This document shows, one piece after another, positions 27,517 to 60,290 of a stretch of DNA of 60,325 nt; within the stretch, counting starts at the first letter, position 1; every line of letters begins with the position of its first letter. The notes under the pieces are model-generated. The model was given only the letters and a program-made list of their open reading frames with translations. It made no database searches and had not been told where the DNA came from. Origin of the DNA: a virus. Location of the stretch: the IMG/VR virus record IMGVR_UViG_3300030107_001017, positions 1 to 60,325 of that record; one strand, 5' to 3'. The position numbers and the translations under genes were made by a program.

Positions 27517-27698
27517 TAGGCCATGTCCTCATAACGACCATCAAGCATGGCTGTTATTTCATCTTCAAAGGCGTTTATTTCTTTAAGCACCTCTTGAGTT
27601 TTGTAGTGAGCACCTAATTTAGCCCTGACTATTCCTCGAACTCTGTCGAGTATGTCTTCGTAACCATCGTAAGATTTTATTTCTGTTTTATGTTTCAT
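27516..27698 (-). CDS. Small hypothetical helical protein (60 aa)
   Basis: The start is set at ATG 27698 (MKHKTEIKSYDGYEDILDRV) because GGAGGT lies five bases before it. A longer frame to 27806 would run inside the upstream oxygenase without a ribosome site. The protein is helical and charged (RAKLGAHYKTQEVLKEINAF) and stops next to the nucleotidyltransferase start. Function is unknown. Confidence 0.7.
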   Translation of the reverse strand: MKHKTEIKSYDGYEDILDRVRGIVRAKLGAHYKTQEVLKEINAFEDEITAMLDGRYEDMA

Positions 27699-28401
27699 TT
27701 CCACCTCCGTATAACCAGAATACCAATAAATATCGATCACCGTCTTCCTCAACAGGTAGTCCACGGTGCATGTGTGTAAAGCTAGGAAAGAACAAAGCGT
27801 GACCATTCGGTAATGGTTCTACCGTGGTTCGGCCATGAAACTCAGTGCCACCACCAGTGTAGTTTCCTGTGTTCAGAGGAACAACCATACTGATGTCAGC
27901 AGTTTGATCATGATGCCAAGCCCCCTGCTTTTTATCTTGTATGTTGTAGTTAGCAATCTGTATGCTTGCTGCTGCGTTGCTATACCGTTGCCAAATTGAC
28001 ATAAAGATTGGGTTCATTACATTAAAAACTACGCCAAGCATCGAGTTGAATAACTCAGGGCATTTTTCATGTAAAACGATTTCAGGTATTTGTCTCAGCT
28101 CGTCCTCACCCTCGTTAGGGGCAAAGGAAAACTGAGCCTTCATATTTTCTATTTCATCCAACATTGTGGAGCAAAACTCTTCCGTAAACAAAGGGACTGA
28201 GTATATATCGTGACCATGGTCAGTGACATATTCTTGTAGTATGTTTTCTACACTGAGCTGACCGTCACTTTCCTGAAACGCCTTCAAGCTGTCCATAGAA
28301 TCTCTGGTTAACTCAAGAGTAGTCTTATCAAGCATCCACTCTGCTTTTATGGTTAAAATAAAGTTTTTTACTAGATACGGTGGGGTTGGAGGGGGCTGCA
28401 T
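27688..28401 (-). CDS. 2OG-Fe(II) oxygenase (prolyl-4-hydroxylase-like)
   Basis: The 237-aa protein has a cupin-type core: SIQIANYNIQ, HHD at 163-165 (H163-x-D165), a distal His at 210 or 212 in FPSFTHMHRG, and Arg223 followed by YLLVFWLYG. The iron ligand triad and the 2OG-binding Arg are thus in place. The substrate is unknown; the P4H-like core may hydroxylate a protein or small molecule. GGAG before ATG 28401 supports the start. Confidence 0.8.
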   Translation of the reverse strand: MQPPPTPPYLVKNFILTIKAEWMLDKTTLELTRDSMDSLKAFQESDGQLSVENILQEYVTDHGHDIYSVPLFTEEFCSTMLDEIENMKAQFSFAPNEGEDELRQIPEIVLHEKCPELFNSMLGVVFNVMNPIFMSIWQRYSNAAASIQIANYNIQDKKQGAWHHDQTADISMVVPLNTGNYTGGGTEFHGRTTVEPLPNGHALFFPSFTHMHRGLPVEEDGDRYLLVFWLYGGGNET

Positions 28402-30707: not shown

Positions 30708-31003
30708 TACTTTTTAGTCTTTATCAGTCTGATCTTTTTAAGTGACATCCAATCACGCATCAACTCGTTAAGAGTTTTAACATTCGCATCTGGGAACTCC
30801 TCTCTGTAGCTTTTGTACACATTATTGTATTCTTCAAGACCTTTATAGTAGTTACCGTTGCCGAGTTTACAGAACCGAATAATCTGCCAAATCCTCTGTT
30901 TAGTAAGACCATACTTCAGTCCGAGATCCTCCATCGTAATGTTGCTATTTGTGTAGGTCATGTGGACATTAAAGTATAGATCTTTTAACTCACGTCTTGT
31001 CAT
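30707..31003 (-). CDS. Helix-turn-helix protein
   Basis: The start is placed at ATG 31003 (MTRRELKDLYFNVHMTYTNS), which has GAGGA nine bases before it; the frame extends upstream to 31033 into polA without a ribosome site. The segment EDLGLKYGLTKQRIWQIIRF resembles a sigma-70 region 4 or other HTH recognition helix. The rest is helical and basic. A transcription regulator is likely; its target is unknown. Confidence 0.7.
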   Translation of the reverse strand: MTRRELKDLYFNVHMTYTNSNITMEDLGLKYGLTKQRIWQIIRFCKLGNGNYYKGLEEYNNVYKSYREEFPDANVKTLNELMRDWMSLKKIRLIKTKK

Positions 31004-32876
31004 TGAAATAGTCCTCGTAGTGTATAACATCACCCCAGTTTTTACCTATCTCTGCGTCTACTTTATTAGGTACTTTTAATTCAACGCAGTCTCTCATAAT
31101 CTCTATGGCTTTTTCACAATCTTTCTTATCGCTTACAGAAATGTTTAGCTCGTCGTGCACCTGAGTGTGAGCTAAGAAACCTTCCTTAGCCAAGTCAACC
31201 ATGGCTTTTTTAGTCATGTCTGCTGCTGAACCTTGTATTAAACGGTTCATTGCTTTATAGGTGTAGGCTCTTTTTAATCTGCCGCCATATTCATCCATAG
31301 CGCGTTCTAACGGTAACGGCAGCTCCCTGCGGTCAAACGGTTCATAGAGGTTAAATCGGCATTTACGGCCCAATAAAGTTTTAACAAAACCCCTGTTAGA
31401 ACCCATACGAGCCGCAGAGTCGCGTAGGCCACGGATAAACGGTACACGCTCATGATACTGGTCAAATAATATTTCAGCCTCCTCTGGGCTGATTCCTAGC
31501 TGAGTGGTTAGCTTATCTTTACCCATACCGTAGCTCAGTCCTAGGTTGATAATCTTAGCTTCCTTACGACTTATGTTAGCCATGTCCGCTACAATCTGGT
31601 GAAAATCTGCGTCATCATAGGCATACTCCAGAGCAGCTTCTTCCGCACCTTCCTGCTGAGTAAGAACAGAGTAGTGAACCGTAAGGCGTGGTTCTTGTTG
31701 AGAGTAATCAAAACACCCCCAATGAGAATCTTGTTCCGGTATAAAAAGACTGCGTATTAATTTACCAATCATAGGGTCACGTGCAGGGACTTGCTGAAGG
31801 TTAGGGTTAGAGCAACTGAACCTTCCTGTAACTGTGCCTCCGTTATCAGATCTTAGTGGGTGTAGCTCACCGTGTATTCTGCCGTCAACAAGATGCTCTA
31901 GTATCATCTTATCTATGAATGTAGTTCTGGCTTTGTTAAGTTTTCTAGCTTTGGCGATAGCCATGGGAAGTTTATGGTCGTGTTCCTCTAGCCAATTAGC
32001 AACAAAACTAGGTGCCTGAGTCTTAGGTGTTTTAGGGTAGTCTAGACCAGCTCTATCAAAAACTTGAGCTAGAGATTGAGCTGCCCATAGGTCAGGTTCT
32101 ACTCCATACCACCGTTTAATTTCTTTTGTTATTTTATTCTCTTCTCTTTGCAGCTGTTTCTTTACCTGATCAGCTTTATCTACATCTATCCTCACCCCCA
32201 TGCTACGCATGTTTATGAGTATGGGTATGAGAGAGGTTTCTAGTTTATAGATGTCTGCAACGTCTTCTGTTGCCACACCTTCTTTTAATATTTGCCACAG
32301 TCTATAGGTCAGGTCGGCATCCTGTTCTGCATAAGCTCCTACATACTTAGCCTCGAGTTTATACATCTCAGCTTTGGGATCAACACCAAAAGCCTGTGCA
32401 GCTTCGTCCAGCATAGACTCATCTTTTTCTTCACGGAGGTATAGCTTACCCAGCGTATTTAAAGAGTAGCTGTACTGGTTCTCATTCAGTAGAGGCGCAG
32501 CCATCATAGTATCGTGTATGGTTCCACTTATCTCGTAGCCTGCACGTTTTAACCAGCCTACATCGTACTGAGCGTTGTGGAATATTTTTTCACTAGGAGC
32601 GTCTAGCTGTTTTTGAAACCATCTACGCACTACCTCCCCGTCTAGATTACCACCAGCTGTGTGAGCAATAGGAAAGTAACCCTTGTACCCTTCAGTAGCT
32701 ACGGCTATGCCTATGATATCTCCTCTGTCCTTGAACGCCCACCCTGGACCATGAGACATAAGCCACGGGTCACAAGTCTCTAGGTCAATGGCTAACTCTT
32801 TTACGTTAGTCAAGTCAGGAAAAGAGGTTGGTGGTTTCCAGTCAGCCTCGGGTGGGAACAATAGTTCTTGAGTCAT
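30990..32876 (-). CDS. DNA polymerase I (family A), Leu at position 762 equivalent
   Basis: The 628-aa protein has a 3'-5' exonuclease with IDLET (D31, E33), NAQYD (D105) and YAEQD (Y182, D186). The polymerase has motif A FDYSQQEPRL (D390), motif B RKEAKIINLGLSYGMG (R437, K441, Y449) and motif C QVHDELN (H574 D575 E576). There is no 5' nuclease. At the position of E. coli Phe762 there is Leu445; in sequenced viruses this residue is Phe, Tyr or Leu and affects fidelity and dideoxynucleotide handling. It overlaps the HTH gene by 14 bases. It is the replicative polymerase. Confidence 0.95.
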   Translation of the reverse strand: MTQELLFPPEADWKPPTSFPDLTNVKELAIDLETCDPWLMSHGPGWAFKDRGDIIGIAVATEGYKGYFPIAHTAGGNLDGEVVRRWFQKQLDAPSEKIFHNAQYDVGWLKRAGYEISGTIHDTMMAAPLLNENQYSYSLNTLGKLYLREEKDESMLDEAAQAFGVDPKAEMYKLEAKYVGAYAEQDADLTYRLWQILKEGVATEDVADIYKLETSLIPILINMRSMGVRIDVDKADQVKKQLQREENKITKEIKRWYGVEPDLWAAQSLAQVFDRAGLDYPKTPKTQAPSFVANWLEEHDHKLPMAIAKARKLNKARTTFIDKMILEHLVDGRIHGELHPLRSDNGGTVTGRFSCSNPNLQQVPARDPMIGKLIRSLFIPEQDSHWGCFDYSQQEPRLTVHYSVLTQQEGAEEAALEYAYDDADFHQIVADMANISRKEAKIINLGLSYGMGKDKLTTQLGISPEEAEILFDQYHERVPFIRGLRDSAARMGSNRGFVKTLLGRKCRFNLYEPFDRRELPLPLERAMDEYGGRLKRAYTYKAMNRLIQGSAADMTKKAMVDLAKEGFLAHTQVHDELNISVSDKKDCEKAIEIMRDCVELKVPNKVDAEIGKNWGDVIHYEDYFNDKT

Positions 32877-33557
32877 TTACGCTGCAGCCTCCCTACACAT
32901 ATTTTGTTTACCGAAATAACACCACTTACACTTGAACTTAGAAGGGTTGGCAGGAAACTCTTCAGCCGTGGTCATAGCGAGTGCTCGTTGATTAAGTTTT
33001 TCTTGTTTGGCTTTTATGCTTTGTGGTGTGTAGATATACCTATCTATCTTACCATGGTCCAAGTACCACATTTCTGTCTGGATACTTTCTAGTTCTGGAT
33101 AACGGTTTAATGCTACGGCACCGTAAAGCTCACACTGCTCTCTGTGTGTTTCTTGATTACCGTCGTAACGTCCTGTCTTAAAATCAATAACACGAGCCTC
33201 TTTAGAGATTCCTTCCTCGTACACAAAGGCGTCTACTTTAGCTCTACCCCATGTGTCTTCTTCAAACCAACCAGTTTTCTGCCAGTTTTTATCTACAGCC
33301 CAGTCACTTTCACAAAACACATGGCCGTGAATGTACAAGTCTCTTAGAACTTCAAACGCCTCTTCAAACTCTTTGAGCTGAGAAGGTATCTCTTCGTAAT
33401 TACCTCTGATATATTCTTCACAGAGTTTGTGCATATCCTTTCCTCTATCCATTGCTGGACTTCCAGGTTCTTTTATCTTTTTGATAAACTTAAACTCTGC
33501 TTGTTTAGGGCACTTTTCAAAACAGCTTAGTCGGCTGTAAGACCATTGTTCAATCAT
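32877..33557 (-). CDS. RecB/Cas4-like PD-(D/E)XK nuclease
   Basis: The 226-aa protein starts WSYSRLSCFEKCPKQAEFKF, then GRAKVDAFVY and EARVIDFKTGRYDGNQ, the D-x(n)-E/D-x-K nuclease core, and a C-terminal cysteine cluster CKWCYFGKQNMC that, with the N-terminal Cys, may bind an Fe-S cluster as in Cas4/AddB-type nucleases. It likely trims DNA ends or takes part in recombination. It lies directly before polA, with one codon between them. Confidence 0.85.
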   Translation of the reverse strand: MIEQWSYSRLSCFEKCPKQAEFKFIKKIKEPGSPAMDRGKDMHKLCEEYIRGNYEEIPSQLKEFEEAFEVLRDLYIHGHVFCESDWAVDKNWQKTGWFEEDTWGRAKVDAFVYEEGISKEARVIDFKTGRYDGNQETHREQCELYGAVALNRYPELESIQTEMWYLDHGKIDRYIYTPQSIKAKQEKLNQRALAMTTAEEFPANPSKFKCKWCYFGKQNMCREAAA

Positions 33558-34611
33558 GACTACTCCAGGTATATTCGTTGTCTTTCATTCGTCTACTAAA
33601 CCAATCCCAGCATACTTTTCTCCAGTCGCTGGCTTCACACTTGGCTATTTCTAGTATAGCTTCTTTCTGTTCGTCCAACTTCCAGTGCCACCAAGCGTCC
33701 TGTATAGGCACAGCTACATCTGAGAAAAATGGTTCACTGTATTCAATATCCTTTTGAAAAGGAGTCCTGCCCAAGAATTTTAATAAGTCTAAATCCCAGT
33801 CCTCTATGGTGGCGTTCACCATAGGGTAGTATGTTTGGTTTGTGCGGTATGGGTTTGAGTTGATGAGTTCTTTCATTGTGAAAAAATCAAACGCATCGAT
33901 TTCTGAAAACTTGTCCACTAGTTTATTAAACACATCTGTGTAGGCGTGATAGTTGTCGCTCACTTGATAATACTTACCGACACCCACACGCAAAGCCCCA
34001 GCCATGTACTCTTGCAACATTGACATGTGTACAGCGTTGGCCCCATACGCTCCCCAGATGATATCGTTTGACCTATTACAGACCGTCATCTGTAGACGAT
34101 TATCAGCATCAATCTTGAAATAGATAGAAGTATTACACGGTACATCCTTACCGTCTCTGTCTAAATCTGATACTGCGTCCCACATCTGTAAAACACAGCG
34201 TCTATCTGTTGGGTCTTCTTTTAGTCTTTTTATGATTATACTGAGTTGGTCTATGGACTGATCATTTGTCCGGTCTGTCCAGTACTCTCTCCATCTCCAG
34301 CCATACGCACCCCACAGAGTTTTACCGTCATCGCTGTACCGCTTCATACCCTTGTTGAATTGGTAGACATAGTCCAAGTCATGTCTACCCCCAAGCATCC
34401 ACAAACTCTCCATAAAATGAAAGAATGGGTTAGCATCTCTCTGCTCCCAAAACAACACTCTTTCTTGTGGTCTGTGGTATACCGTAGTGACGGGACACTC
34501 AGACTCTCTCACCGGACCATTCCTACTGTCTCTAGTTATACCATGAACCTCGAGAAGTTCTAACCCTCTCAGTAGAGCATCGTGTACGTTTCTTACCTCA
34601 ATTACTTGCAT
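33550..34611 (-). CDS. Thymidylate-synthase-like enzyme, possibly dUMP hydroxymethylase
   Basis: The 353-aa protein has the TS-type arrangement: catalytic DVPCNTSIYF (C159), CNRSNDIIWG (R180-S-N-D183) and GANAVHMSMLQEYMAG with Asn192 at the uracil-recognition position (Asp would suggest cytosine). The N-terminal part contains HFMESLWMLGG and LWGAYGWRWREYW. It is longer than E. coli ThyA and in the phage TS/dNMP-hydroxymethylase branch. It therefore could make dTMP or 5-hydroxymethyl-dUMP. The modification genes beside it favour a hydroxymethylase, but sequence alone cannot decide. Confidence 0.85.
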   Translation of the reverse strand: MQVIEVRNVHDALLRGLELLEVHGITRDSRNGPVRESECPVTTVYHRPQERVLFWEQRDANPFFHFMESLWMLGGRHDLDYVYQFNKGMKRYSDDGKTLWGAYGWRWREYWTDRTNDQSIDQLSIIIKRLKEDPTDRRCVLQMWDAVSDLDRDGKDVPCNTSIYFKIDADNRLQMTVCNRSNDIIWGAYGANAVHMSMLQEYMAGALRVGVGKYYQVSDNYHAYTDVFNKLVDKFSEIDAFDFFTMKELINSNPYRTNQTYYPMVNATIEDWDLDLLKFLGRTPFQKDIEYSEPFFSDVAVPIQDAWWHWKLDEQKEAILEIAKCEASDWRKVCWDWFSRRMKDNEYTWSSHD

Positions 34612-35383
34612 TTTCTACCCCTTCTTTATATGCTTTTTTCCAACCTATAACCACGTCTTTACGGGGCAAGCCGTTCCAAGCTGTTTTAGTTTGTTTTTCT
34701 ACCACCTTTACACAGGTTGGGTGAAGCTCGTTCAGCCTTTCCGCTCCTGCATTATGTACATCTATCGTTCGCCATTCACTACACCCACCGTCGGCGTTAG
34801 AGGATTTTTGACCTTGTGCGTAGTAGTAACTTACCTTACACGCTTTCCCTCTTCTAAGAAGCTGTAGAGAAATATCAAAATCTTCCATCACCTGTGTTCG
34901 ACCCCACTCTACATCAGAGGGGAAGGCGTCAAGGTTATACCCCAGCACTCGCATATATCTGGTATTCTCAACCGATAGAGTCTCTACACGATTATTACCT
35001 TCTCTAGCACTTACCCCAACATGAGCATAACCTTGATCCATCCACTCATCTAATAACCCGAACAAGGCAGGATACTCACTAGAATCTAGATACCTCAAAT
35101 GCCAGTCTGTCGGGTTTTTACGAATATAAAAACGTAAGTCATCATCTAACATGACAATGCGTGGATCGTCTGTGTTCTCCACTATGTACTTCCTCTTTGG
35201 GCCTATACCTGTCATCCCTTCAGGAATAACCATCTTAGGTGTGTCTGGGTAGTTGTGGTACTGGTCCAGTTCATCTGGGTCTACGACTAGAACCACAGAG
35301 CCGTCAGTTTGCATGCTTTTAGGAAACCAGTTCAAGGTCTCCTGATTATATGCTCTACCCCTTGTGGGGATGTATATCTTCAT
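34598..35383 (-). CDS. GT-A glycosyltransferase, TET-associated (TAGT)-like
   Basis: The 261-aa protein starts MKIYIPTRGRAYNQETLNWF, has a nucleotide-binding strand VVLVVDPDELDQY, then the DDD metal motif in IVMLDDDLRFYIRKN (about 78-90). A later VMEDFDISLQLLRRGK supplies acidic residues for catalysis. This arrangement matches the TET-associated glycosyltransferase family, which attaches sugars to 5-hydroxymethyl pyrimidines in phage DNA. Position between TS-like and dUTPase genes agrees. The sugar donor is unknown. Confidence 0.8.
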   Translation of the reverse strand: MKIYIPTRGRAYNQETLNWFPKSMQTDGSVVLVVDPDELDQYHNYPDTPKMVIPEGMTGIGPKRKYIVENTDDPRIVMLDDDLRFYIRKNPTDWHLRYLDSSEYPALFGLLDEWMDQGYAHVGVSAREGNNRVETLSVENTRYMRVLGYNLDAFPSDVEWGRTQVMEDFDISLQLLRRGKACKVSYYYAQGQKSSNADGGCSEWRTIDVHNAGAERLNELHPTCVKVVEKQTKTAWNGLPRKDVVIGWKKAYKEGVENASN

Positions 35384-35844
35384 TACTTTTCTCCTGTGCT
35401 GCCGAAGCCGCCTTTGCTTCTGTTAGTTGTTTCACTGAACTCTAATACAGGGGTCCAGTGAACATTCACCACAGGTATAACCACCAGTTGTGCTATTCTT
35501 TGGCCCACTTCTACATGAAACGATTGAGTGCCGTTGTTAGTTAGAGGGACAATCAATTCCCCTTGATAGTCCGAGTCTATTATACCAAGTGTATTAGTCA
35601 GGTGTATCTTTTTTATACCCAAGCTAGAACGAGGGACAAGTAATCCACACAACATAGGGTCATTTAGAAAAATAGCCAGACCAGTGTGGAAAGAGTGAGA
35701 CTCTCCTGGTTTCAGGATATACCCTTCCCCCGAACGTAAGTCCAATCCTGCTGAACCTGAGGTAGCGTAGCCAGGCAGAATCTCTTGACCACACTTATCT
35801 GGTAACTTTGTGTCAATTAGCTTGATTTCTATTTTACTTTGCAT
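35383..35844 (-). CDS. dut: dUTPase
   Basis: All five trimeric dUTPase motifs are present: GSAGLDLRS (motif 1), PRSSLGIKK (2), NTLGIIDSDYQGEL (3), GQRIAQLVV (4) and RSKGGFGSTG (5). The enzyme hydrolyses dUTP to dUMP, feeding the TS-like enzyme and limiting uracil in DNA. The start is set at ATG 35844, which lies one base after the previous stop and gives 153 residues, the usual length; a longer frame to 35901 would overlap the Nmad1-like gene. Confidence 0.95.
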   Translation of the reverse strand: MQSKIEIKLIDTKLPDKCGQEILPGYATSGSAGLDLRSGEGYILKPGESHSFHTGLAIFLNDPMLCGLLVPRSSLGIKKIHLTNTLGIIDSDYQGELIVPLTNNGTQSFHVEVGQRIAQLVVIPVVNVHWTPVLEFSETTNRSKGGFGSTGEK

Positions 35845-35845
35845 T

Positions 35846-36211
35846 TTAGTTCTCTTTTCTTGTTGATGGAAACTCAGGCTGATCTGGGAACATAGGTTCA
35901 ATTGGTTCTTTTTCCCTTTTTACTAACCGATTTTTAGTTGTATAAGACTCAACTAAAAGAAGATACCTTCTCAGATCTCGTATGTCGTCTAGTATCCCTG
36001 TGTCGCTGGAATCTTGAGAGATTGTGTGGAATATATCCCAACCATCTTTTTTAACCTGATTCTCAATCCTATCCCATTTACGAGCCAGCATCATAAATGC
36101 GCCTACCCCACCACGGTCACGCCAGCTGTCGCCATAGCTTGTTTCTGCTTTCTTCAATTTTTGTACATCTATATCTGCCAATGATTGAATGTCTCTAAAA
36201 TTTGCTGGCAT
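35846..36211 (-). CDS. Nmad1/DUF1599-like nucleotide-modification-associated protein
   Basis: The 121-aa protein has LKKAETSYGDSWRDRGGVGA, then FMMLARKWDRIENQVKKDGW and LDDIRDLRRYLLLVESYTTK. YGDSW and RKWDR are typical of the DUF1599/nucleotide modification-associated domain 1 family (by memory). Members occur with DNA base-modification genes; biochemistry is not known to me. Here it stands between the HMUDK-like and dUTPase genes. It is two bases after the HMUDK-like stop. Confidence 0.75.
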   Translation of the reverse strand: MPANFRDIQSLADIDVQKLKKAETSYGDSWRDRGGVGAFMMLARKWDRIENQVKKDGWDIFHTISQDSSDTGILDDIRDLRRYLLLVESYTTKNRLVKREKEPIEPMFPDQPEFPSTRKEN

Positions 36212-36212
36212 A

Positions 36213-37091
36213 CTATCCTCCTTTGTACTTATATTTTGCTCTGGGTCTGCCTTCTCCTAGCCTTACCCTTTCATACTTATCGTATTCACAGAGGCAGTGT
36301 TCAATATCTCTCATCTCTAGTCCGTCTATCCAATATGCTAGATACCTGAGGTGGTCTTGCATCCCCTCCTCAGAAGGATAGGTCTCGATTTCTGTTGAGA
36401 GGTCTAATAAATCTTTCATCTCTTCTGTTAGCTGATGGGTTTTGATAGTTTGATTGACGGGCCTACCGTGTATTCTGTTCAACCCTCTCTGAGCTCCTGG
36501 ACCTGCATTAGCCCACGAGTATATATCGTCCGCGTTTTGTAGGTGCACAGTCCACCTTAGATCACTAACTACCTCATAAGCCATAAACCCACTAAACCCA
36601 GCGTATGGTAGGTATTCTCTCCAGGACTTTTCTAAGGAGTCTCTGTGTAGTGTGGGTTGGTTTTTATAGAGTGGGGTAAGTATCTTATCTACAGTCTGTT
36701 CCACTTTAGTACCGCCCAACGTACCAGTGAGCATATACGCTCCTGTGTAGACCTTATCTCCTCTATCCATTCTTGCCTGCATTATAGACTTGACTCTTTC
36801 AGGCTCCCACTCTTCAGGAAACCCTATCTCCTCTAGTGTTTCTGGCCAGTTAATTTGACGAGCTACCGCCATAGAGAACGGTAGGTTAGGGTGATCCGCA
36901 TAAGGCTCTCGCCAGTTATTCTCTATCCATTGAGTGACTGTATCTAGTTCACGGAACACGTTACAAAAACTATAGGTCTGAAGTATCTCATCATCAGTCC
37001 ATGGCCAACTGTGGCCTTCCTCGCGTTTAAGGTATATTCGGTGTCTTTCATTTATGTAGTAAAAAAACCTTTTTAAATTTTCTTGTACCAT
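36213..37091 (-). CDS. Stand-alone HMUDK-helical / thymine pyrophosphorylase-type protein
   Basis: The 292-aa protein has FYYINERHRIYLKREEG (about 10-26), WPWTDDEILQTYSF (29-42), NVFRELDTVTQWI (44-56), KVYTGAYMLTG (113-123), GFMAYEVVSDLRWTV (168-182) and NAGPGAQRGL (195-204). The blocks match the helical, DNA-glycosylase-related domain of the alpha-glutamyl/putrescinyl-thymine pyrophosphorylase and 5-hmdU DNA kinase family. No P-loop kinase motif is present, so this is the stand-alone version. It would act on hydroxymethyluracil in DNA; exact chemistry is open. Confidence 0.75.
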   Translation of the reverse strand: MVQENLKRFFYYINERHRIYLKREEGHSWPWTDDEILQTYSFCNVFRELDTVTQWIENNWREPYADHPNLPFSMAVARQINWPETLEEIGFPEEWEPERVKSIMQARMDRGDKVYTGAYMLTGTLGGTKVEQTVDKILTPLYKNQPTLHRDSLEKSWREYLPYAGFSGFMAYEVVSDLRWTVHLQNADDIYSWANAGPGAQRGLNRIHGRPVNQTIKTHQLTEEMKDLLDLSTEIETYPSEEGMQDHLRYLAYWIDGLEMRDIEHCLCEYDKYERVRLGEGRPRAKYKYKGG

Positions 37092-37540
37092 ACAGGTATC
37101 TCCCTTTTAGTCCATTGGGCAAAATGCTTCTCACCGTTATAATAATTACGGTAAGCTGTAACAGGGTCGTCAGTAACTTTATACTGGTCGGGCATACATT
37201 GTGGGTGTTGTTGTAGCCCTTTACTTTCTATCAAAGGAGGAGGTAGAGACTTAACTATATCAGCTGATTTATGGTTAGCTGACCTACCGTACCGCCAGCA
37301 AAACTCCTCATTTAAACGTAAGGCTAACTCCTTGAGCCATAGCCAGTTATCAAGACTAGCTCCAGACCATAGGGTACACGGGTGTTTGGCGTGTACTGGC
37401 TTATACGGGGCAGTCTGGTTATTAGACCATAAGGCGGTACAAAGCATCTGAGCAGACTCTAATATCATCTTTGATACGTGCTTATCACAGTGTACTTGGG
37501 CACATAATTTAGGTGTGGTATCTAATTTAAATATATTCAT
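37073..37540 (-). CDS. Putative pyrimidine-dimer DNA glycosylase-like protein
   Basis: The 155-aa protein has MNIFKLDTTPKLCAQVHCDK, then HVSKMILESAQMLCTALW, KHPCTLWSGASLDNWLWLKE and VTAYRNYYNGEKHFAQWTKR. This matches a phage family often annotated as pyrimidine dimer DNA glycosylase, although the activity of members is not well proven. It would suit a sunlit marine virus. It overlaps the HMUDK-like gene by 19 bases, so the two are probably co-translated. Confidence 0.65.
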   Translation of the reverse strand: MNIFKLDTTPKLCAQVHCDKHVSKMILESAQMLCTALWSNNQTAPYKPVHAKHPCTLWSGASLDNWLWLKELALRLNEEFCWRYGRSANHKSADIVKSLPPPLIESKGLQQHPQCMPDQYKVTDDPVTAYRNYYNGEKHFAQWTKREIPVWYKKI

Positions 37541-37600
37541 ACGAGTTTAGTTTACTTTACTTGTAAAGGTAAAGTATAGGAATTTTGTTAAAAATTTTTG
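37541..37600. promoter_or_regulatory. AT-rich spacer with CTTTAC/GTAAAG inverted repeat
   Basis: CTTTAC-TT-GTAAAG (37555-37568) is an inverted repeat between the AlkB-like gene and the 155-aa gene, followed by GTAAAGTATAGG. It resembles the TTTAC boxes of the promoters and may be an operator; on the minus strand no convincing promoter pair with good spacing is seen. Confidence 0.35.
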
Positions 37601-38179
37601 TCACAAACCTGTCCTAAACGTCAGGCTAATTCTCCTACCTGACCCCTCTATAGGTGGCACTGAATGGGTAGTCTTCATTTGAGAATGTCCATCAAACAAT
37701 ATGGCGTCACCATCCTCCATAATGTAGTTATATTCTTTCACCCATTTACTGGGAGTTTTAGTATCACTGGTGTTGGTGTGTTTCTTTACATTGTACTGAT
37801 ACTCTCTAAAGTTAATTAGTCGAGGAGCACCGAAAGAAACGCTCAAAACAATATCATCGAGTGTGGGGACTGTGTCAGAGTGGTGAGGTATCCACTCTTC
37901 TCCTGTTTCGTACAGACCGCAAAGGCAGAAAGTAAATTTTAACTGTTTACCCAAAGTTTGATTAACATACGCTTCTGCGACACTTTTTTCATGAAGTAGT
38001 TGAGTGGTCCATGGTTCAGGTTCGTATTTTTTACCTGCGTATTCAAAGACAGACGTGCCATAGCCCTTTGTTTTTCTACCTTTGACCACCTCACCGTTAA
38101 ACACCCTGTGAGTGGGGTTATCCCAACTGAATATTTTAGGACTGTGGCCAGTAAAAAGACCTTTAGTAAATTTAATCAT
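37601..38179 (-). CDS. AlkB-like 2OG-Fe(II) dioxygenase
   Basis: The 192-aa protein has an AlkB core: FTFCLCGLYETGEEWIPHHS with H100-x-D102, VLSVSFGAPRLINFRE, DGDAILFDGHSQMKTTHSVP with His172, and GRRISLTFRTG with the R-x5-R pair (183, 189). AlkB enzymes remove alkyl groups from bases; a role in base modification rather than repair is possible here. The ATG overlaps the helicase stop by four bases. Confidence 0.85.
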   Translation of the reverse strand: MIKFTKGLFTGHSPKIFSWDNPTHRVFNGEVVKGRKTKGYGTSVFEYAGKKYEPEPWTTQLLHEKSVAEAYVNQTLGKQLKFTFCLCGLYETGEEWIPHHSDTVPTLDDIVLSVSFGAPRLINFREYQYNVKKHTNTSDTKTPSKWVKEYNYIMEDGDAILFDGHSQMKTTHSVPPIEGSGRRISLTFRTGL

Positions 38180-39672
38180 ACAAATAAAAACTCCTTGCGT
38201 GTCTTGCCTCTAACTAAATGCAGGTTGTTTTTAGTTCTTGTTACGCCTACATAAAATGCCCTGCATTCATTATCAGGGTTTTTATACAGCTCGTCCCATG
38301 TTTTAGTGGCTAGGTCTGTTAATAACACAACGTTCTCACATTCACCGCCTTTAGCTGCGTGTATAGTGTTCAACCTGATTTGAGAAGACATAAGTTTTTC
38401 ACCATGTCTAAGACACGAAATCACATACTCCCTTTGAGTATTACCGATCAAATCAAAACATTCATGCCATATGCTATCAACTAGTAGACCATGGTCCTCC
38501 TTTAATTGTGCTAGGTTGAGAAGCATATCGTCTTGTACAGTCTTAAGAGTTTTATATCCTCTTTTTACACCTCTATCAACCTTCATGTAGTTATAGATTT
38601 TTCTTATTCTACCAGCCTCTATAGACTTACCTTTACGAAGGTTTTCCCAGTCTCGTATGGCATTTATCAAAGTCTCGGATACTGATGGCTTATTGCCTTT
38701 TAAGTAAACACGACCATTAACCTTTAAATGTTCTTCTACCGCATTTAACAGATAATTATTTCTAGCTAAAAATAACCAGTCTCCCTTACTTATGTCTACA
38801 TGTTCAAAGCTGGTGTGGTGACTGACTGTTCCTTCCTCTTCCTTGGGTTCCCAGACCTTCTCTTTTCTGTTACCTATACGTTTCACGACACCGAGTGCGA
38901 TATCATGTACTTTTCTAGGTACACGATAAGACTGCTTCAAATACGTGTTGTTACCCTTTAAATTGATAAAATGCTCGACGTCTGCACCAGCCCAACGATA
39001 GATAGCTTGATCGTCATCACCAGCTATGTACACATGCTCGACATTTTCAGCTAGTTTCTGTATACACCGCCACTGAAGAGCAGACAAGTCTTGTGCCTCA
39101 TCAACTATCAATACCTCTAAACTAGGTGAACCTCTAGACTGTAAAAACATCTCTAACATGTCTGTGTAGTCTATTAAGAAGTTAGCTTCTTTGTAGTTTT
39201 TGTAGTTCTTGATAAACCAGTCAAAGTGAAGCCATGATATATTTGAGTTAGAACCGTTCCACTGCTCTCTGAACCCAACGCAACGGTTTCTTGCCATGTT
39301 TTCTAGAAATAACATGGTGTCACCCTTACTAGTCAAAGCCAGTAAATTTTCACCGTCCCAAGCTGAACTGATTCTTTCGCCGACGCTCTTACTAAACTCT
39401 CTCAGATTACCTCTATCCATAACATCACTTCTAGATAAAGACAGCCAGTGGTAGCAGAGAGAGTGTAGTGTTCTAAAATAAGTTAGCTCTTCGACATCGT
39501 AACCGAACTTCTCAACTGCTCTAGTAAGAGCCTCGTTCGCGGCTTTTTTAGTAAACGCTACATACCCCAGCTTTTCAGGCCTCACACCTGACTCTAAAAA
39601 TTGCTCAACTTTGTCTAAAAGATACGTAGTCTTGCCCGTGCCAGGAGGGCCAAGTACCACGTTCCACGTCAC
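38176..39672 (-). CDS. UvrD/PcrA-like SF1 DNA helicase
   Basis: The 498-aa protein has Walker A GPPGTGKTT (8-16), YVAFTKKAANEAL (Ia), VLIVDEAQDLS (II), GDDDQAIYRWAGA (III), QSYRVP (IV), LNTIHAAKGGE (V) and FYVGVTRTKNNLHLV (VI). It is a short SF1A helicase without large insertions. It probably unwinds DNA in replication or recombination with the nearby primase and polymerase. It overlaps the primase gene by four bases. Confidence 0.9.
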   Translation of the reverse strand: MTWNVVLGPPGTGKTTYLLDKVEQFLESGVRPEKLGYVAFTKKAANEALTRAVEKFGYDVEELTYFRTLHSLCYHWLSLSRSDVMDRGNLREFSKSVGERISSAWDGENLLALTSKGDTMLFLENMARNRCVGFREQWNGSNSNISWLHFDWFIKNYKNYKEANFLIDYTDMLEMFLQSRGSPSLEVLIVDEAQDLSALQWRCIQKLAENVEHVYIAGDDDQAIYRWAGADVEHFINLKGNNTYLKQSYRVPRKVHDIALGVVKRIGNRKEKVWEPKEEEGTVSHHTSFEHVDISKGDWLFLARNNYLLNAVEEHLKVNGRVYLKGNKPSVSETLINAIRDWENLRKGKSIEAGRIRKIYNYMKVDRGVKRGYKTLKTVQDDMLLNLAQLKEDHGLLVDSIWHECFDLIGNTQREYVISCLRHGEKLMSSQIRLNTIHAAKGGECENVVLLTDLATKTWDELYKNPDNECRAFYVGVTRTKNNLHLVRGKTRKEFLFV

Positions 39673-41239: not shown

Positions 41240-42022
41240 CTAAAAAGGAGATTCTTCCTCAGCTTTTCCAAAACTAGCGTCAAAGTTTATGCTTTCTTTG
41301 AACTGTTTGGCGGCTTCGTAGAGAAACATCTCTTCGTCACCTAACTGACCCAGAAGCTCAATGTTCCAGCCGAACCAGTTACCGAGGTCATTAGACTCTG
41401 GTACTGTAGTCAGCTTGTACTTATGGCTATAAATCGGTGGTGTAAACACCCTACCGTCTCCCGCTTTTACCTTGAGCGTAGAAGCCACTGAGTTCCAGGC
41501 TCTCGACTTTTTGAGTTGTGTACCGGACATTGGTATCATAACTGTTTGAAAAGAGTCACCGTCAACAACTAAAGCGTAATGCGTAGCCGACGTCTGGATG
41601 TAATTACCGTTCTCTAACACATCCTGATTCTTATCGTTTTTAGTGGTCTGTTGAAGTATGGCTTGATCAGTGTGTTGTTTTACTAAACCACCACCGTCTT
41701 CTCTAGGTTGCCACTCTAAGTAGTACCTCTTATAAGTAACAGGTATCACTTCACAGCCCTTTTCGCCTTGGAAAAGTTCACGTGTTACCGTGTTAGTTAT
41801 ATCTCCCGCTGCAGAGTCTTTGATGTATTTACCATCACGACTGTTGACTTCAGGGCTAAGTGCCTGTAGTATTTTCAGTCTGGGTACAGTCACATCCTCT
41901 GCACCGATATTCTCTAGGCCACTACCAGCGTCCTCTTCGAACACGGACAATGCTGTTAAGGCTGTAGAGGATTTCTCTGCTACTTCGTTAGTTTTTTCTT
42001 CGTTAGTTTTTTCTTTGGTCAT
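41240..42022 (-). CDS. ssDNA-binding protein-like (phage SSB type)
   Basis: The 260-aa protein has an acidic N-terminus, DVTVPRLKILQALSPEVNSR, then a beta-rich core (GCEVIPVTYKRYYLEWQPRE, YNYIQ-type strands) and ends FGKAEEESPF, an acidic tail with terminal Phe as in phage SSB proteins. It lies in front of primase and helicase genes. This family is often annotated as ssDNA-binding in marine phages; the evidence is context, tail and length. It overlaps the 182-aa gene by four bases. Confidence 0.7.
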   Translation of the reverse strand: MTKEKTNEEKTNEVAEKSSTALTALSVFEEDAGSGLENIGAEDVTVPRLKILQALSPEVNSRDGKYIKDSAAGDITNTVTRELFQGEKGCEVIPVTYKRYYLEWQPREDGGGLVKQHTDQAILQQTTKNDKNQDVLENGNYIQTSATHYALVVDGDSFQTVMIPMSGTQLKKSRAWNSVASTLKVKAGDGRVFTPPIYSHKYKLTTVPESNDLGNWFGWNIELLGQLGDEEMFLYEAAKQFKESINFDASFGKAEEESPF

Positions 42023-42567
42023 TTTGTCACCTTTATTTTTTGCCCTATATAGACATTAAAGGTTTCTAAAGGCAGGGCGACACCTTTTTCCACCTGCTCC
42101 TTGACAGTAGCTTTGAGAGTCATGGGTTCTACCCACTTCTTCTGTACGAGGTCGTGTCCTTCCTCTTCTAGCTTTGCCATGAGTTCCTGTGCAGCATCGT
42201 TTTCTTCTCTACCGAAACTAGCCGATACTGTATTCTTTATAATATCTCCTAACTCGTTTTCCTGTAGCCATTTGAAAGCTGCATCACGAGTCTCGTCTGT
42301 TATTCTAGCTGAGTAATAATTAGTAACAGAGAGGGTCGTACCATCTGTCAGTTTGATTTCACTGAGTCCTTGCTCTAGGAGAGCGTTAGGCAGTGTGTCC
42401 TCACTTAATTTTCTACGGTCATCTTTCCACAATTTAAGTTCTGCCTCTAGCCTCTCTATCTCTTCGTCCATTTGTGTCAGCTTTCTACTCAGCTGACTAA
42501 TGTTAGTCAGGTCATCTACTTTTATGTCTAACTGACTCTCTTCTTCCATCTCATCTAAGATGCTCAT
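42019..42567 (-). CDS. Conserved phage protein with coiled-coil and C-terminal WVEPMTLKA motif
   Basis: The 182-aa protein has a coiled-coil (TNISQLSRKLTQMDEEIERL), then LPNALLEQGLSEIKLTDGTT, YSARITDETRDAAFKWLQEN, IKNTVSASFGREEN and WVEPMTLKATVKEQVEKG, FNVYIGQKIKV. The pattern is frequent near replication genes of phages; function is not established to me. It is the middle of three overlapping genes (104-aa, this one, SSB-like). Confidence 0.8.
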   Translation of the reverse strand: MSILDEMEEESQLDIKVDDLTNISQLSRKLTQMDEEIERLEAELKLWKDDRRKLSEDTLPNALLEQGLSEIKLTDGTTLSVTNYYSARITDETRDAAFKWLQENELGDIIKNTVSASFGREENDAAQELMAKLEEEGHDLVQKKWVEPMTLKATVKEQVEKGVALPLETFNVYIGQKIKVTK

Positions 42568-42878
42568 ATCTTTACCTCCAGCGGATAGTATTTGTATTGA
42601 CGGTTATCCCACTTTAGGAATTTTACACGTCCTTGGTTATATTCGGCAGCTACAGCAGTGCATACGCCTATCGCTGCAGGATCCCCTATAGGTAACAAAA
42701 AGTCCTCGTCGTTAAAACCACGTAATGAATAACGTATGATATGAACCACATCATCAGGGTTCCAAGTGATATTAGGGGATCTATCGTCTAGTATGAAACT
42801 AAAGTCACCATAGTCTTGTGCAGATACGATGTTTTTCTTAGGGTCGGGTTTTTGTACAATATATACTGTTGGATCCAT
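42564..42878 (-). CDS. Hypothetical protein at the head of the early operon
   Basis: The 104-aa protein MDPTVYIVQKPDPKKNIVSA continues DYGDFSFILDDRSPNITWNP, LRGFNDEDFLLPIGDPAAIG and VKFLKWDNRQYKYYPLEVKI. It is alpha/beta and soluble. I recall it near SSB genes in marine phages but not its function. It is the first gene after the 382-base divergent spacer. Confidence 0.75.
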   Translation of the reverse strand: MDPTVYIVQKPDPKKNIVSAQDYGDFSFILDDRSPNITWNPDDVVHIIRYSLRGFNDEDFLLPIGDPAAIGVCTAVAAEYNQGRVKFLKWDNRQYKYYPLEVKI

Positions 42879-43260: not shown

Positions 43261-44703
43261 TTGAACGACTTTATATTTAAAACTCTACCTTATCAGCACC
43301 AGCTAGACGCACTAAAAGAATCACACGACAGGAAGGTGTTTGCACTTTTCATGGAGATGGGTTGCGGTAAGTCTAAGGTAGCTATTGATAATTTCGTACA
43401 CCTACATAGAGAAGGAAACATAAACGGTGTGTTAGTGCTAGCTCCTAAGGGGGTCTATGATACTTGGTTTAGTAAAGAGATACCTAACCATATACCAGAT
43501 CAAGTAGACTACCACGTAGTCAAATGGTCTAACTCAACTTCTCAGAAAAATTTAAAATGTCTTCAAACTTTATTTGAAGAGCCAGACCGACTCAACATAT
43601 TAATCATGAACATAGAGGCTTTGAGCACGAAAAAAGGCACAAGGTTTGTCACTGACTTTTTATTTAAAAGAAAGTGTATGTTTATAATAGACGAGAGTAC
43701 AACGATAAAAAACCATAAAGCTAAAAGAACTGTCAATGCTGTAAGGCTCGGTAAATATGCTCACTATAGAAGAATATTGACAGGTTCTCCTGTGACAAAA
43801 AGTCCACTAGACTTGTACAGTCAAGCATACTTTCTAGATCCAGCTTTACTCGGGTACAACAGCTACTTCGCTTTTAGAGCTAGATACGCTAATTTAGTTG
43901 ACCGTTCTGCTAGCGGTAGGACGTTCAAGCAGGTACTAGGGTACAAAAACCTTACAGAATTAAACCAGAGTCTCCTTAAATTTAGCTGTAGAGTACTAAA
44001 AAAGGATTGTTTAGACTTACCTGATAAAGTTTATCTTAGAAGAACTATTCAAATGACAGATGAACAAAAGCGGGTATACAAAGAATTACAAAAGCAAGCG
44101 AGGGCTTCTCTAAGCAAAGGCACAGTAACAATTACTCATTTGATAACTCAAATCATAAGACTTCATCAGGTTTCTTGTGGGTTTGTTGGTCTTGATGGTG
44201 GTGGTGTGGATGAACTACCTAGCCATAGATTAACCGAGCTAATGGAGATACTAGAAGAGACTGACGGTAAGGTTATCATTTGGGCTAACTACAGGCACGA
44301 CATACAAAAGATTCAAGATGAACTTACTCGTGTGTATGGAGAAGAATCAGTGGGAACTTATCACGGAGATGTTACACAAGACCGCAGAGCAGAAGTCATT
44401 AATCAGTTTCAAGACCCGGATAGTTCACTTCGGTTTTTCGTTGGTAATACACAGACAGGAGGATACGGCATCACATTGACTGAAGCTAATACAGTTATTT
44501 ATTATTCAAATAACTACGATTTAGAAAAGAGGCTGCAGTCTGAGGATCGTGCACACAGGATAGGTCAAACAGATAAAGTCACCTATGTAGATATAGTTTG
44601 TGAACGCACAGTTGATGAGAAGATAGTTAAGTCTTTAAGACAAAAACAGAATATAGCGCAGACTGTACTAGGTGAAGAAAAATGGAAAGATTGGTTAACC
44701 TAA
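43261..44703 (+). CDS. SNF2/DEAD-type SF2 helicase, only plus-strand gene
   Basis: The 480-aa protein has LPYQHQLDALKESHDRKVFA, Walker A MGCGKSK (33-39), FIIDESTTIKNH (a DEST version of motif II), LTGSPV (III), then VIIWANYRHDIQ, GTYHGDVTQDRRAEVINQF, GNTQTGGYGITL and SEDRAHRIGQTD (V/VI). These are SNF2-like helicase motifs. The start is TTG at 43261, the only start codon in the open frame after the TAA at 43246. The stop overlaps that of the opposite gene. Confidence 0.85.
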   Translation: MNDFIFKTLPYQHQLDALKESHDRKVFALFMEMGCGKSKVAIDNFVHLHREGNINGVLVLAPKGVYDTWFSKEIPNHIPDQVDYHVVKWSNSTSQKNLKCLQTLFEEPDRLNILIMNIEALSTKKGTRFVTDFLFKRKCMFIIDESTTIKNHKAKRTVNAVRLGKYAHYRRILTGSPVTKSPLDLYSQAYFLDPALLGYNSYFAFRARYANLVDRSASGRTFKQVLGYKNLTELNQSLLKFSCRVLKKDCLDLPDKVYLRRTIQMTDEQKRVYKELQKQARASLSKGTVTITHLITQIIRLHQVSCGFVGLDGGGVDELPSHRLTELMEILEETDGKVIIWANYRHDIQKIQDELTRVYGEESVGTYHGDVTQDRRAEVINQFQDPDSSLRFFVGNTQTGGYGITLTEANTVIYYSNNYDLEKRLQSEDRAHRIGQTDKVTYVDIVCERTVDEKIVKSLRQKQNIAQTVLGEEKWKDWLT

Positions 44704-59375: not shown

Positions 59376-59608
59376 TACTGTTGCTCCGCATTAGCTGCTT
59401 CTAGCTGTTGTGAGTACCAGTTAAATGCTGCTACATAGGTGTCTAGTTGCTTTTGATTAGCATTGATTAAATTAGTAATCTGACCAATCTGCTCTCTAAG
59501 CTCGTCCATACGAGCGGTTAACATCTCAGGGGTAGGAGGAAGTTGAGCAACCTCTGCCTCTTCTACAACCTCTGCGTCTACGATTTCTTCAGTGCCTTGT
59601 TCCGTCAT
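59375..59608 (-). CDS. Acidic coiled-coil protein, 77 aa
   Basis: The protein starts with an acidic segment (EIVDAEVVEEAEVAQLPPTP) followed by a coiled coil (LTARMDELREQIGQITNLIN). It may be a virion assembly or lysis-accessory protein. It overlaps the upstream oxygenase by 20 bases and the downstream gene by one. Function is unknown. Confidence 0.7.
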   Translation of the reverse strand: MTEQGTEEIVDAEVVEEAEVAQLPPTPEMLTARMDELREQIGQITNLINANQKQLDTYVAAFNWYSQQLEAANAEQQ

Positions 59609-60290
59609 CTTCTACCTTCCAAACATTCAAATTTGCGGCAACAGTACGCCGTTCACCTTCGCCCTCAAACGGGTAAACCATGTGTGTTAGCCAGCTAGGA
59701 AACATCAAGAACTTCCCTACTTCTGGCTTGATTACAAAACTTTGCGGAGGAGCTAACCGCTCTACATCTAATAAACTATTACGACCATAACTGAATGCCA
59801 GACACCCATCTGCATTTCCACTAGAGTTATACAGACTATACTCAGGGCTTCCCGCTGTGGGCTGATCTAGGATTTGTTGGGGTACTTTTGTCCAACAGGT
59901 GCAGGAGACTCCCATAATGGTTTTAGTGCCATGATCGTGCATTGGGTTGTAATCTCCCTGATAACTATGCACCGACCACAACTCGTCTGTAAGAACCTCT
60001 CTTTTACCTTTTAGTGGGTTACCAGAGTGAGCGCAGAACTGCTTGACGTAATCCATCGCCAGACCCTGAATCGTCCAGTTAAAGTCTTTTAACTCTTCAC
60101 AATGATGATCCATCGTAAGCTGTTGTCCGTGGGCTATCTGCCCGACTAATGTACCCGCATGGCTCTTGCGTTCTTGATCTACCATTAACTTATCTAGGTA
60201 GTCATTAAGAGTCCCTACCATACTTTCCGATAGCTGTGCTTCCAGCATAAACACCGCTGGTAAAGAATGAAGCGTAAAGTGTTGCTCCAT
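59589..60290 (-). CDS. 2OG-Fe(II) oxygenase-like protein after the tail fibre
   Basis: The 233-aa protein has YNPMHDHGTK with H118-D-H120, then SFVIKPEVGKFLMFPSWLTH (His203) and ERRTVAANLNVW (Arg214/215). These are the iron and 2OG ligands of a TIGR02466-like oxygenase, of a kind often located beside marine phage tail-fibre genes. It may modify the fibre or a host molecule; the substrate is unknown. Its ATG is in a TAATG overlap with the inferred tail-fibre stop. Confidence 0.8.
   Translation of the reverse strand: MEQHFTLHSLPAVFMLEAQLSESMVGTLNDYLDKLMVDQERKSHAGTLVGQIAHGQQLTMDHHCEELKDFNWTIQGLAMDYVKQFCAHSGNPLKGKREVLTDELWSVHSYQGDYNPMHDHGTKTIMGVSCTCWTKVPQQILDQPTAGSPEYSLYNSSGNADGCLAFSYGRNSLLDVERLAPPQSFVIKPEVGKFLMFPSWLTHMVYPFEGEGERRTVAANLNVWKVEDDGTRH

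Follow-up and report, generated by a model that had tools for sequence, protein, structure and literature searches.

The DNA of Pseudomonas phage M6 carries 5-NedU, which is derived from 5-hydroxymethyldeoxyuridine (5-hmdU) (PMC6449724). The parts of this pathway are a dUMP hydroxymethylase (dUMP-HMase), a 5-hmdU DNA kinase (PF18748), the HMUDK_hel protein (also known as aG/PT-PPlase1), and an amino acid:DNA transferase (ADDT; PF18724). In HTVC023P-type pelagiphages, according to the relevant portion of PMC9599517, genes that encode a thymidylate synthase (TS), aG/PT-PPlase1, and, in some of these phages, a TAGT-family glycosyltransferase are found near the polymerase gene. Brevibacterium phage LuckyBarnes has been described with a dCMP-hydroxymethylase (dCMP-HMase) and two glycosyltransferases (PMC6588365). 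The locus compared with these systems here belongs to a marine bacteriophage and lies in a stretch of 60,325 nucleotides (60.3 kb, 42.7% G+C; positions 1 to 60,325 of the virus record IMGVR_UViG_3300030107_001017), hereafter referred to as the window. The initial annotation had reported seven adjacent leftward genes, and all seven open reading frames (ORFs) were found on the minus strand at 33550-38179, head to tail and mostly overlapping or abutting. They are tightly packed, with a UvrD-like helicase gene on one side and the gene for a family A DNA polymerase (PolA) on the other. Their conserved part is probably a cassette for 5-hmdU-based thymine hypermodification, with a glycosyltransferase taking the place of the kinase route. 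The main addition of this analysis is the exclusivity between kinase and glycosyltransferase as partners of HMUDK_hel.

Core genes and the partners of HMUDK_hel

The stand-alone HMUDK/pyrophosphorylase-type protein of the initial annotation is indeed HMUDK_hel (292 amino acids; 36213..37091, minus strand; PF18723, E 8.7e-48). The predicted TAGT-type glycosyltransferase (261 amino acids; 34598..35383, minus strand) was likewise recovered, as PF20691 (E 9.8e-26; 91.4 bits against a curated cut-off of 27.5). Its Asp80-82 motif is 99-100% conserved among 85 relatives and its Asp168 is 99% conserved; judging from this motif, the window TAGT is catalytically intact. The third gene (353 amino acids; 33550..34611, minus strand) encodes a TS-family enzyme (PF00303, E 1.6e-21; phrog_5131, 4.5e-116), for which dUMP 5-hydroxymethylase activity is predicted.

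Viral loci were gathered with the window HMUDK_hel and TAGT as queries and surveyed by home-built profiles. About 100 viral contigs show the arrangement, which is thus not due to chance. A separate TAGT-seeded scan, which overlaps the first survey in contigs and used a smaller alignment because the first, diverse one was too divergent, found a contiguous HMUDK_hel-TAGT-TS triad in 71 of 73 newly added loci and a kinase in none. In the two exceptions, TAGT starts about 110 bases or less from the contig end and the HMUDK_hel side is missing. The triad is flanked by helicase/primase genes on one side and by nuclease/PolA genes on the other. The constant core consists only of HMUDK_hel, TAGT, and TS, and the other four genes come, go, or move: a small ORF is mostly present, located inside the block or adjoining PolA; the dUTPase is restricted to the subclade of the window and one distant locus; and the AlkB-like and glycosylase-like genes are optional. 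Phages 023Pt_psg01, DSL-LC04, and HTVC023P, in which HMUDK_hel was not found, have helicase and PolA genes with at most small ORFs between them. Because these cassette-free relatives keep the helicase next to PolA, the block is a unit of gain or loss at a single site.

In a broader scan, HMUDK_hel proteins formed 66 clusters at 80% identity, of which 24 occur with TAGT, 22 with the kinase, 20 with neither, and none with both (Fisher p 4.5e-6), these counts being dependent on the search seeds and the clusters not fully independent. Neither kinase nor ADDT was found in the whole TAGT records, TAGT was not found in the kinase records, and ADDT was never found together with TAGT. On the HMUDK_hel tree, which has several long branches and parts that are unsure, well-supported branches force five or more changes of label for TAGT and likewise for the kinase, indicating that the partners were swapped repeatedly. 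Five other loci (L158, L167, L183, L190, and L225) have TS but neither a kinase nor a clear TAGT. A GT-B glycosyltransferase occupies the slot in L183, a GT4-like glycosyltransferase and a PIG-L-like protein are present in L158, a PIG-L-like protein is present in L167, and L225 has a sub-threshold TAGT match together with a radical SAM/SPASM protein. It is possible that these loci encode further thymine modifications.

Since one family pairs with either a kinase or glycosyltransferases, the distribution of HMUDK_hel is better explained by recognition of 5-hmdU than by a function tied to the kinase. The domain that bears the name "5-hmdU DNA kinase, helical domain" would thus seem not to be confined to kinases and would instead recognize 5-hmdU in DNA. 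A more general proposal, tentative and with a little less than an even chance of being right, is that HMUDK_hel serves as a general reader of 5-hmdU in DNA for tailoring enzymes that can replace one another (kinase, TAGT, and GT-B/GT4) and that such TAGT phages bear O-glycosylated 5-hydroxymethyluracil, which would be the phage equivalent of base J.

Predicted pathway and competing explanations

The gene content, the catalytic residues, their conservation, and the exclusivity with kinase and ADDT were observed directly in this analysis. What the enzymes of the scheme below do, which sugar is used, how much dT is replaced, how HMUDK_hel contributes, and that the modification would serve to protect against restriction are all inferred. 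The TS-type enzyme would turn dUMP into 5-hydroxymethyl-dUMP, and the dUTPase, where present, would provide dUMP and exclude dUTP. Host or phage kinases would then yield 5-hmdUTP, which the phage PolA would incorporate for some or all dT. With a nucleotide sugar as donor, TAGT would then glycosylate the 5-hydroxymethyl group of the incorporated base in DNA, and the result would resemble base J. HMUDK_hel would assist TAGT by recognizing or presenting 5-hmdU in DNA, a role that it may share with the 5-hmdU DNA kinase elsewhere. The simplest predicted product is 5-hydroxymethyl-dU with one sugar. Thymine hypermodification, possibly in the form of glycosylated 5-hydroxymethyluracil, had been proposed in the initial annotation for all seven genes. 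It is the best-supported reading given the Asn/Asp residues and M6-type grouping of TS, the intact TAGT, and the HMUDK_hel companion, but the seven genes do not form one set.

An alternative is that the cassette is the same and HMUDK_hel is itself an enzyme, working on 5-hmdU or on the glycosylated base by addition or exchange of a group; the final base would then be glycosylated and further modified. The AlphaFold2 model of HMUDK_hel (pLDDT 93) is mostly helical, and its top fold match in the PDB is the 5-PmdU glycinyltransferase PUGT (TM 0.44, E 0.93, not significant). Foldseek also matched it to helical domains found in 5-hmdU DNA kinases, the fused kinase of SP10 among them, and, more distantly, to models of viral ADDT proteins. 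A PDB sequence search with HMUDK_hel gave no match, and a sequence-level relation was absent when HMUDK_hel was compared with M6 ADDT by hhalign; the PUGT match is thus a mere lead. The many invariant polar residues of the family (including R16, R47, D50, R78, K129, D177, D189, and C268) may point to catalysis but also fit recognition of DNA or a base, and partners as chemically unlike as a kinase, TAGT, and GT-B or GT4-type glycosyltransferases argue against an enzymatic HMUDK_hel. Such a role therefore appears unlikely, and recognition of 5-hmdU on behalf of TAGT is preferred.

The TS residues bear on whether the modified base is thymine or cytosine. The catalytic Cys159 is present in 124/124 relatives of the window TS. 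Asn192, at the dUMP-specificity position (ThyA Asn177), is Asn in 124/124 relatives and is shared with M6 and with an SPO1-type dUMP-HMase, whereas the T-even dCMP-HMase differs. Asp156, at the position of Leu143 in Escherichia coli ThyA (reference sequence checked against the PDB), is Asp in 123/124 relatives and in all phage hydroxymethylases compared (including T-even dCMP-HMase and an SPO1-type dUMP-HMase), whereas ThyA has Leu. The position of ThyA Trp80 was dropped as a hydroxymethylase marker because the alignment is ambiguous there. The M6/YuA-type enzymes are the closest group to the window TS (47-48% identity), and its best PDB sequence match is a CMP 5-hydroxymethylase, with ThyA ranking below. 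A cytosine pathway, with TS acting as a dCMP-HMase and TAGT glycosylating 5-hydroxymethylcytosine, would agree with the published annotation of the LuckyBarnes TS (PMC6588365) and with glucosylated cytosine being the substrate of the T-even TAGT (PMC13216743). However, the Asn that the T-even dCMP-HMase lacks is present in the window, in LuckyBarnes, and in all relatives, the nearest TS relatives are of M6 type, and HMUDK_hel belongs to 5-hmdU systems. Furthermore, the T4-type alpha-glucosyltransferase (alpha-GT; PF11440) was not found in the window record by a search that did find its positive control; the search for the T4-type beta-glucosyltransferase (PF09198) ran without a positive control. 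Cytosine modification is accordingly very unlikely. Although many phage TS genes serve thymidylate synthesis, as the relevant portion of PMC9599517 presumes for TS without aG/PT-PPlase1, it is more improbable still that TS only makes dTMP while TAGT glycosylates something else (e.g., a protein or surface glycan), the two genes being neighbors through hitchhiking in a replication block, given the hydroxymethylase-type residues of TS, the near-invariant adjacency of TS and TAGT to HMUDK_hel, and the exclusivity with the 5-hmdU kinase.

Several points weigh against 5-hmdU glycosylation assisted by HMUDK_hel, in addition to the seed dependence of the cluster counts. The residues of the window TS predict, and do not prove, hydroxymethylation of dUMP. 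The T-even TAGT puts a second sugar on glucosylated cytosine (PMC13216743), and direct action of a TAGT on 5-hmdU is only predicted. In MW202897, TAGT occurs together with a pyrimidine hydroxymethylase and no HMUDK_hel was found, so HMUDK_hel is not always needed. Moreover, a well-supported clade of eight HMUDK_hel clusters (L186, L194, L208, L209, L212, L214, L215, and L223) has no recognized kinase, TAGT, or TS in the available locus DNA. Counting in favor of the scheme, on the other hand, HMUDK_hel was not found in Goe9, an SPO1-type phage whose relatives carry plain 5-hmdU.

Accessory genes and setting of the locus

The dUTPase of the initial annotation (35383..35844, minus strand) is supported by PF00692 (E 4.7e-30) and by NF001862 above its cut-off; ATG at 35844 is its probable start, preferred over the TTG at 35901 in the ORF list. 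The small ORF (35846..36211, minus strand) encodes an all-helical protein of 121 amino acids with weak profile similarity to DUF1599/Nmad1. The label "Nmad1-like" had to be abandoned: 0/49 homologs match Nmad1/DUF1599 (PF07659) or any convincing Pfam family, no such match exists in the window record, and the window protein has no PHROG, NCBIfam, or significant Pfam match. A single-sequence hhalign comparison with one DUF1599 protein gave a weak similarity (probability 75), and 14/49 homologs weakly match a PHROG named "replication protein". In LuckyBarnes (L002:5601-7154) and Montesquieu (L137:7992-9542), the homolog of the small ORF is a C-terminal extension of the TS protein (profile probability 96, E 4e-9), and this natural fusion suggests that its product works with TS. 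The Asn in these two fused enzymes suggests dUMP, not dCMP, as the substrate. A PDB sequence search with the small ORF returned nothing meaningful, and Foldseek leaned to MazG/DCTPP-like all-alpha pyrophosphatases, with every E-value above 2; a role as a nucleotide pyrophosphatase would be a guess based on these weak matches.

The putative photoproduct glycosylase (37073..37540, minus strand; 155 amino acids), common but optional among the loci, was left with an uncertain label. The window protein falls below the cut-off of Pyr_excise (PF03013, E 0.028), and one homolog passes (2.4e-7). T4 endonuclease V has Thr2; residue 2 is Asn in the window protein and in 97% of its homologs. The AlkB-like 2OG-Fe(II) oxygenase (37601..38179, minus strand) was confirmed (PF13532, E 1.1e-14) and is an optional neighbor, missing from many relatives. 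Two more 2OG-Fe(II) oxygenases are encoded at 27688-28401 and 59589-60290 of the window, matching the expansion of this family in pelagiphages reported in the relevant portion of PMC9599517.

The insertion slot is bordered upstream by the UvrD-like helicase (38176..39672, minus strand) and downstream by PolA (30990..32876, minus strand). A PD-(D/E)XK nuclease (32877..33557, minus strand; PF12705) is in this clade mostly located directly downstream of TS. Promoter and terminator scans of the locus found sites no more numerous than in shuffled sequence, which is consistent with a single transcript for the block, short of proof. The nearest relatives of the window virus are HTVC023P-type pelagiphages: for both PolA and portal, identity to this group (HTVC023P, HTVC027P, and 023Pt_psg01) and to phage DSL-LC04 is about 50%. 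No close relative was found by megablast of the gene block against phages, and exact terminal repeats of 11-200 bp are absent from the window. Beside the primase, at 41240-42878, is a run of three genes with matches to Pfam families that take their names from gp32-gp34 of Pseudanabaena phage Pam3. An SNF2-type helicase at 43261-44703 is on the plus strand, against the otherwise leftward gene block; it has a relative in locus L001, and DSL-LC04 has a HepA-type helicase in the opposite orientation at a similar place. Across the whole window, CCGG occurs at 0.45 of the expected frequency, CGCG and GCGC at about 0.7, and most T-containing 4-base palindromes at 0.8-1.0. The depletion of GC-only sites may hint that such sites are unprotected, with CpG depletion as a confounding factor.

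Comparison with known systems

The M6 pathway and the window share homologous TS (48% identity), HMUDK_hel (40%, to M6 ORF055), and PolA (36%), with the order kept. The gene order ADDT ... kinase, HMUDK_hel, (Nmad5), TS, PolA is found in M6, Pam3, Sonora, MW2, and others, the cyanophage Pam3 thus bearing an M6-type version. In contrast, neither the kinase (PF18748) nor ADDT (PF18724) was found in the whole window record, and TAGT is present instead. The T-even TAGT (beta-glucosyl-HMC-alpha-glucosyltransferase) shares its Pfam family and Asp triad with the window TAGT but works with alpha-GT on cytosine, in phages that have dCMP-HMase and lack HMUDK_hel. Bacillus phage SP-15 has glucosylated dihydroxypentyluracil (PMC5977210) and uses other genes; HMUDK_hel and TAGT were searched for in SP-15 and not found. 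The base J of kinetoplastids (JBP hydroxylase and JGT) is also a glycosylated thymine derivative, as predicted for the window, but its synthesis starts from thymine in DNA via JBP. Glycosylated 5-hydroxymethyluracil, the most likely product here, has no phage report in the searched literature.

The window belongs to the same virus group as the HTVC023P-type pelagiphages and has the same core genes as those described in the relevant portion of PMC9599517. That portion names neither the kinase exclusivity nor a product, and it lists a 5'-deoxynucleotidase as well, whereas none of the seven window genes encodes one. Since co-location of the core was reported there, and also occurs in LuckyBarnes, the view that this exact set is undescribed was only partly right, and the novelty is weaker than first thought. 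A 2026 survey found TAGT with neither T4-type glucosyltransferase, and with the substrate unassigned, in 288 of 753 phage genomes (PMC13216743); the cassette offers some of these substrate-less TAGTs a testable substrate, namely 5-hmdU in DNA. LuckyBarnes differs from the window in having two TAGTs, in the small-ORF-like C-terminal extension of its TS, and in the published assignment of that enzyme as a dCMP-HMase (PMC6588365). Nevertheless, its contiguous TS-TAGT-TAGT-HMUDK_hel block represents the same triad as in the window, here carried by a cultured phage.

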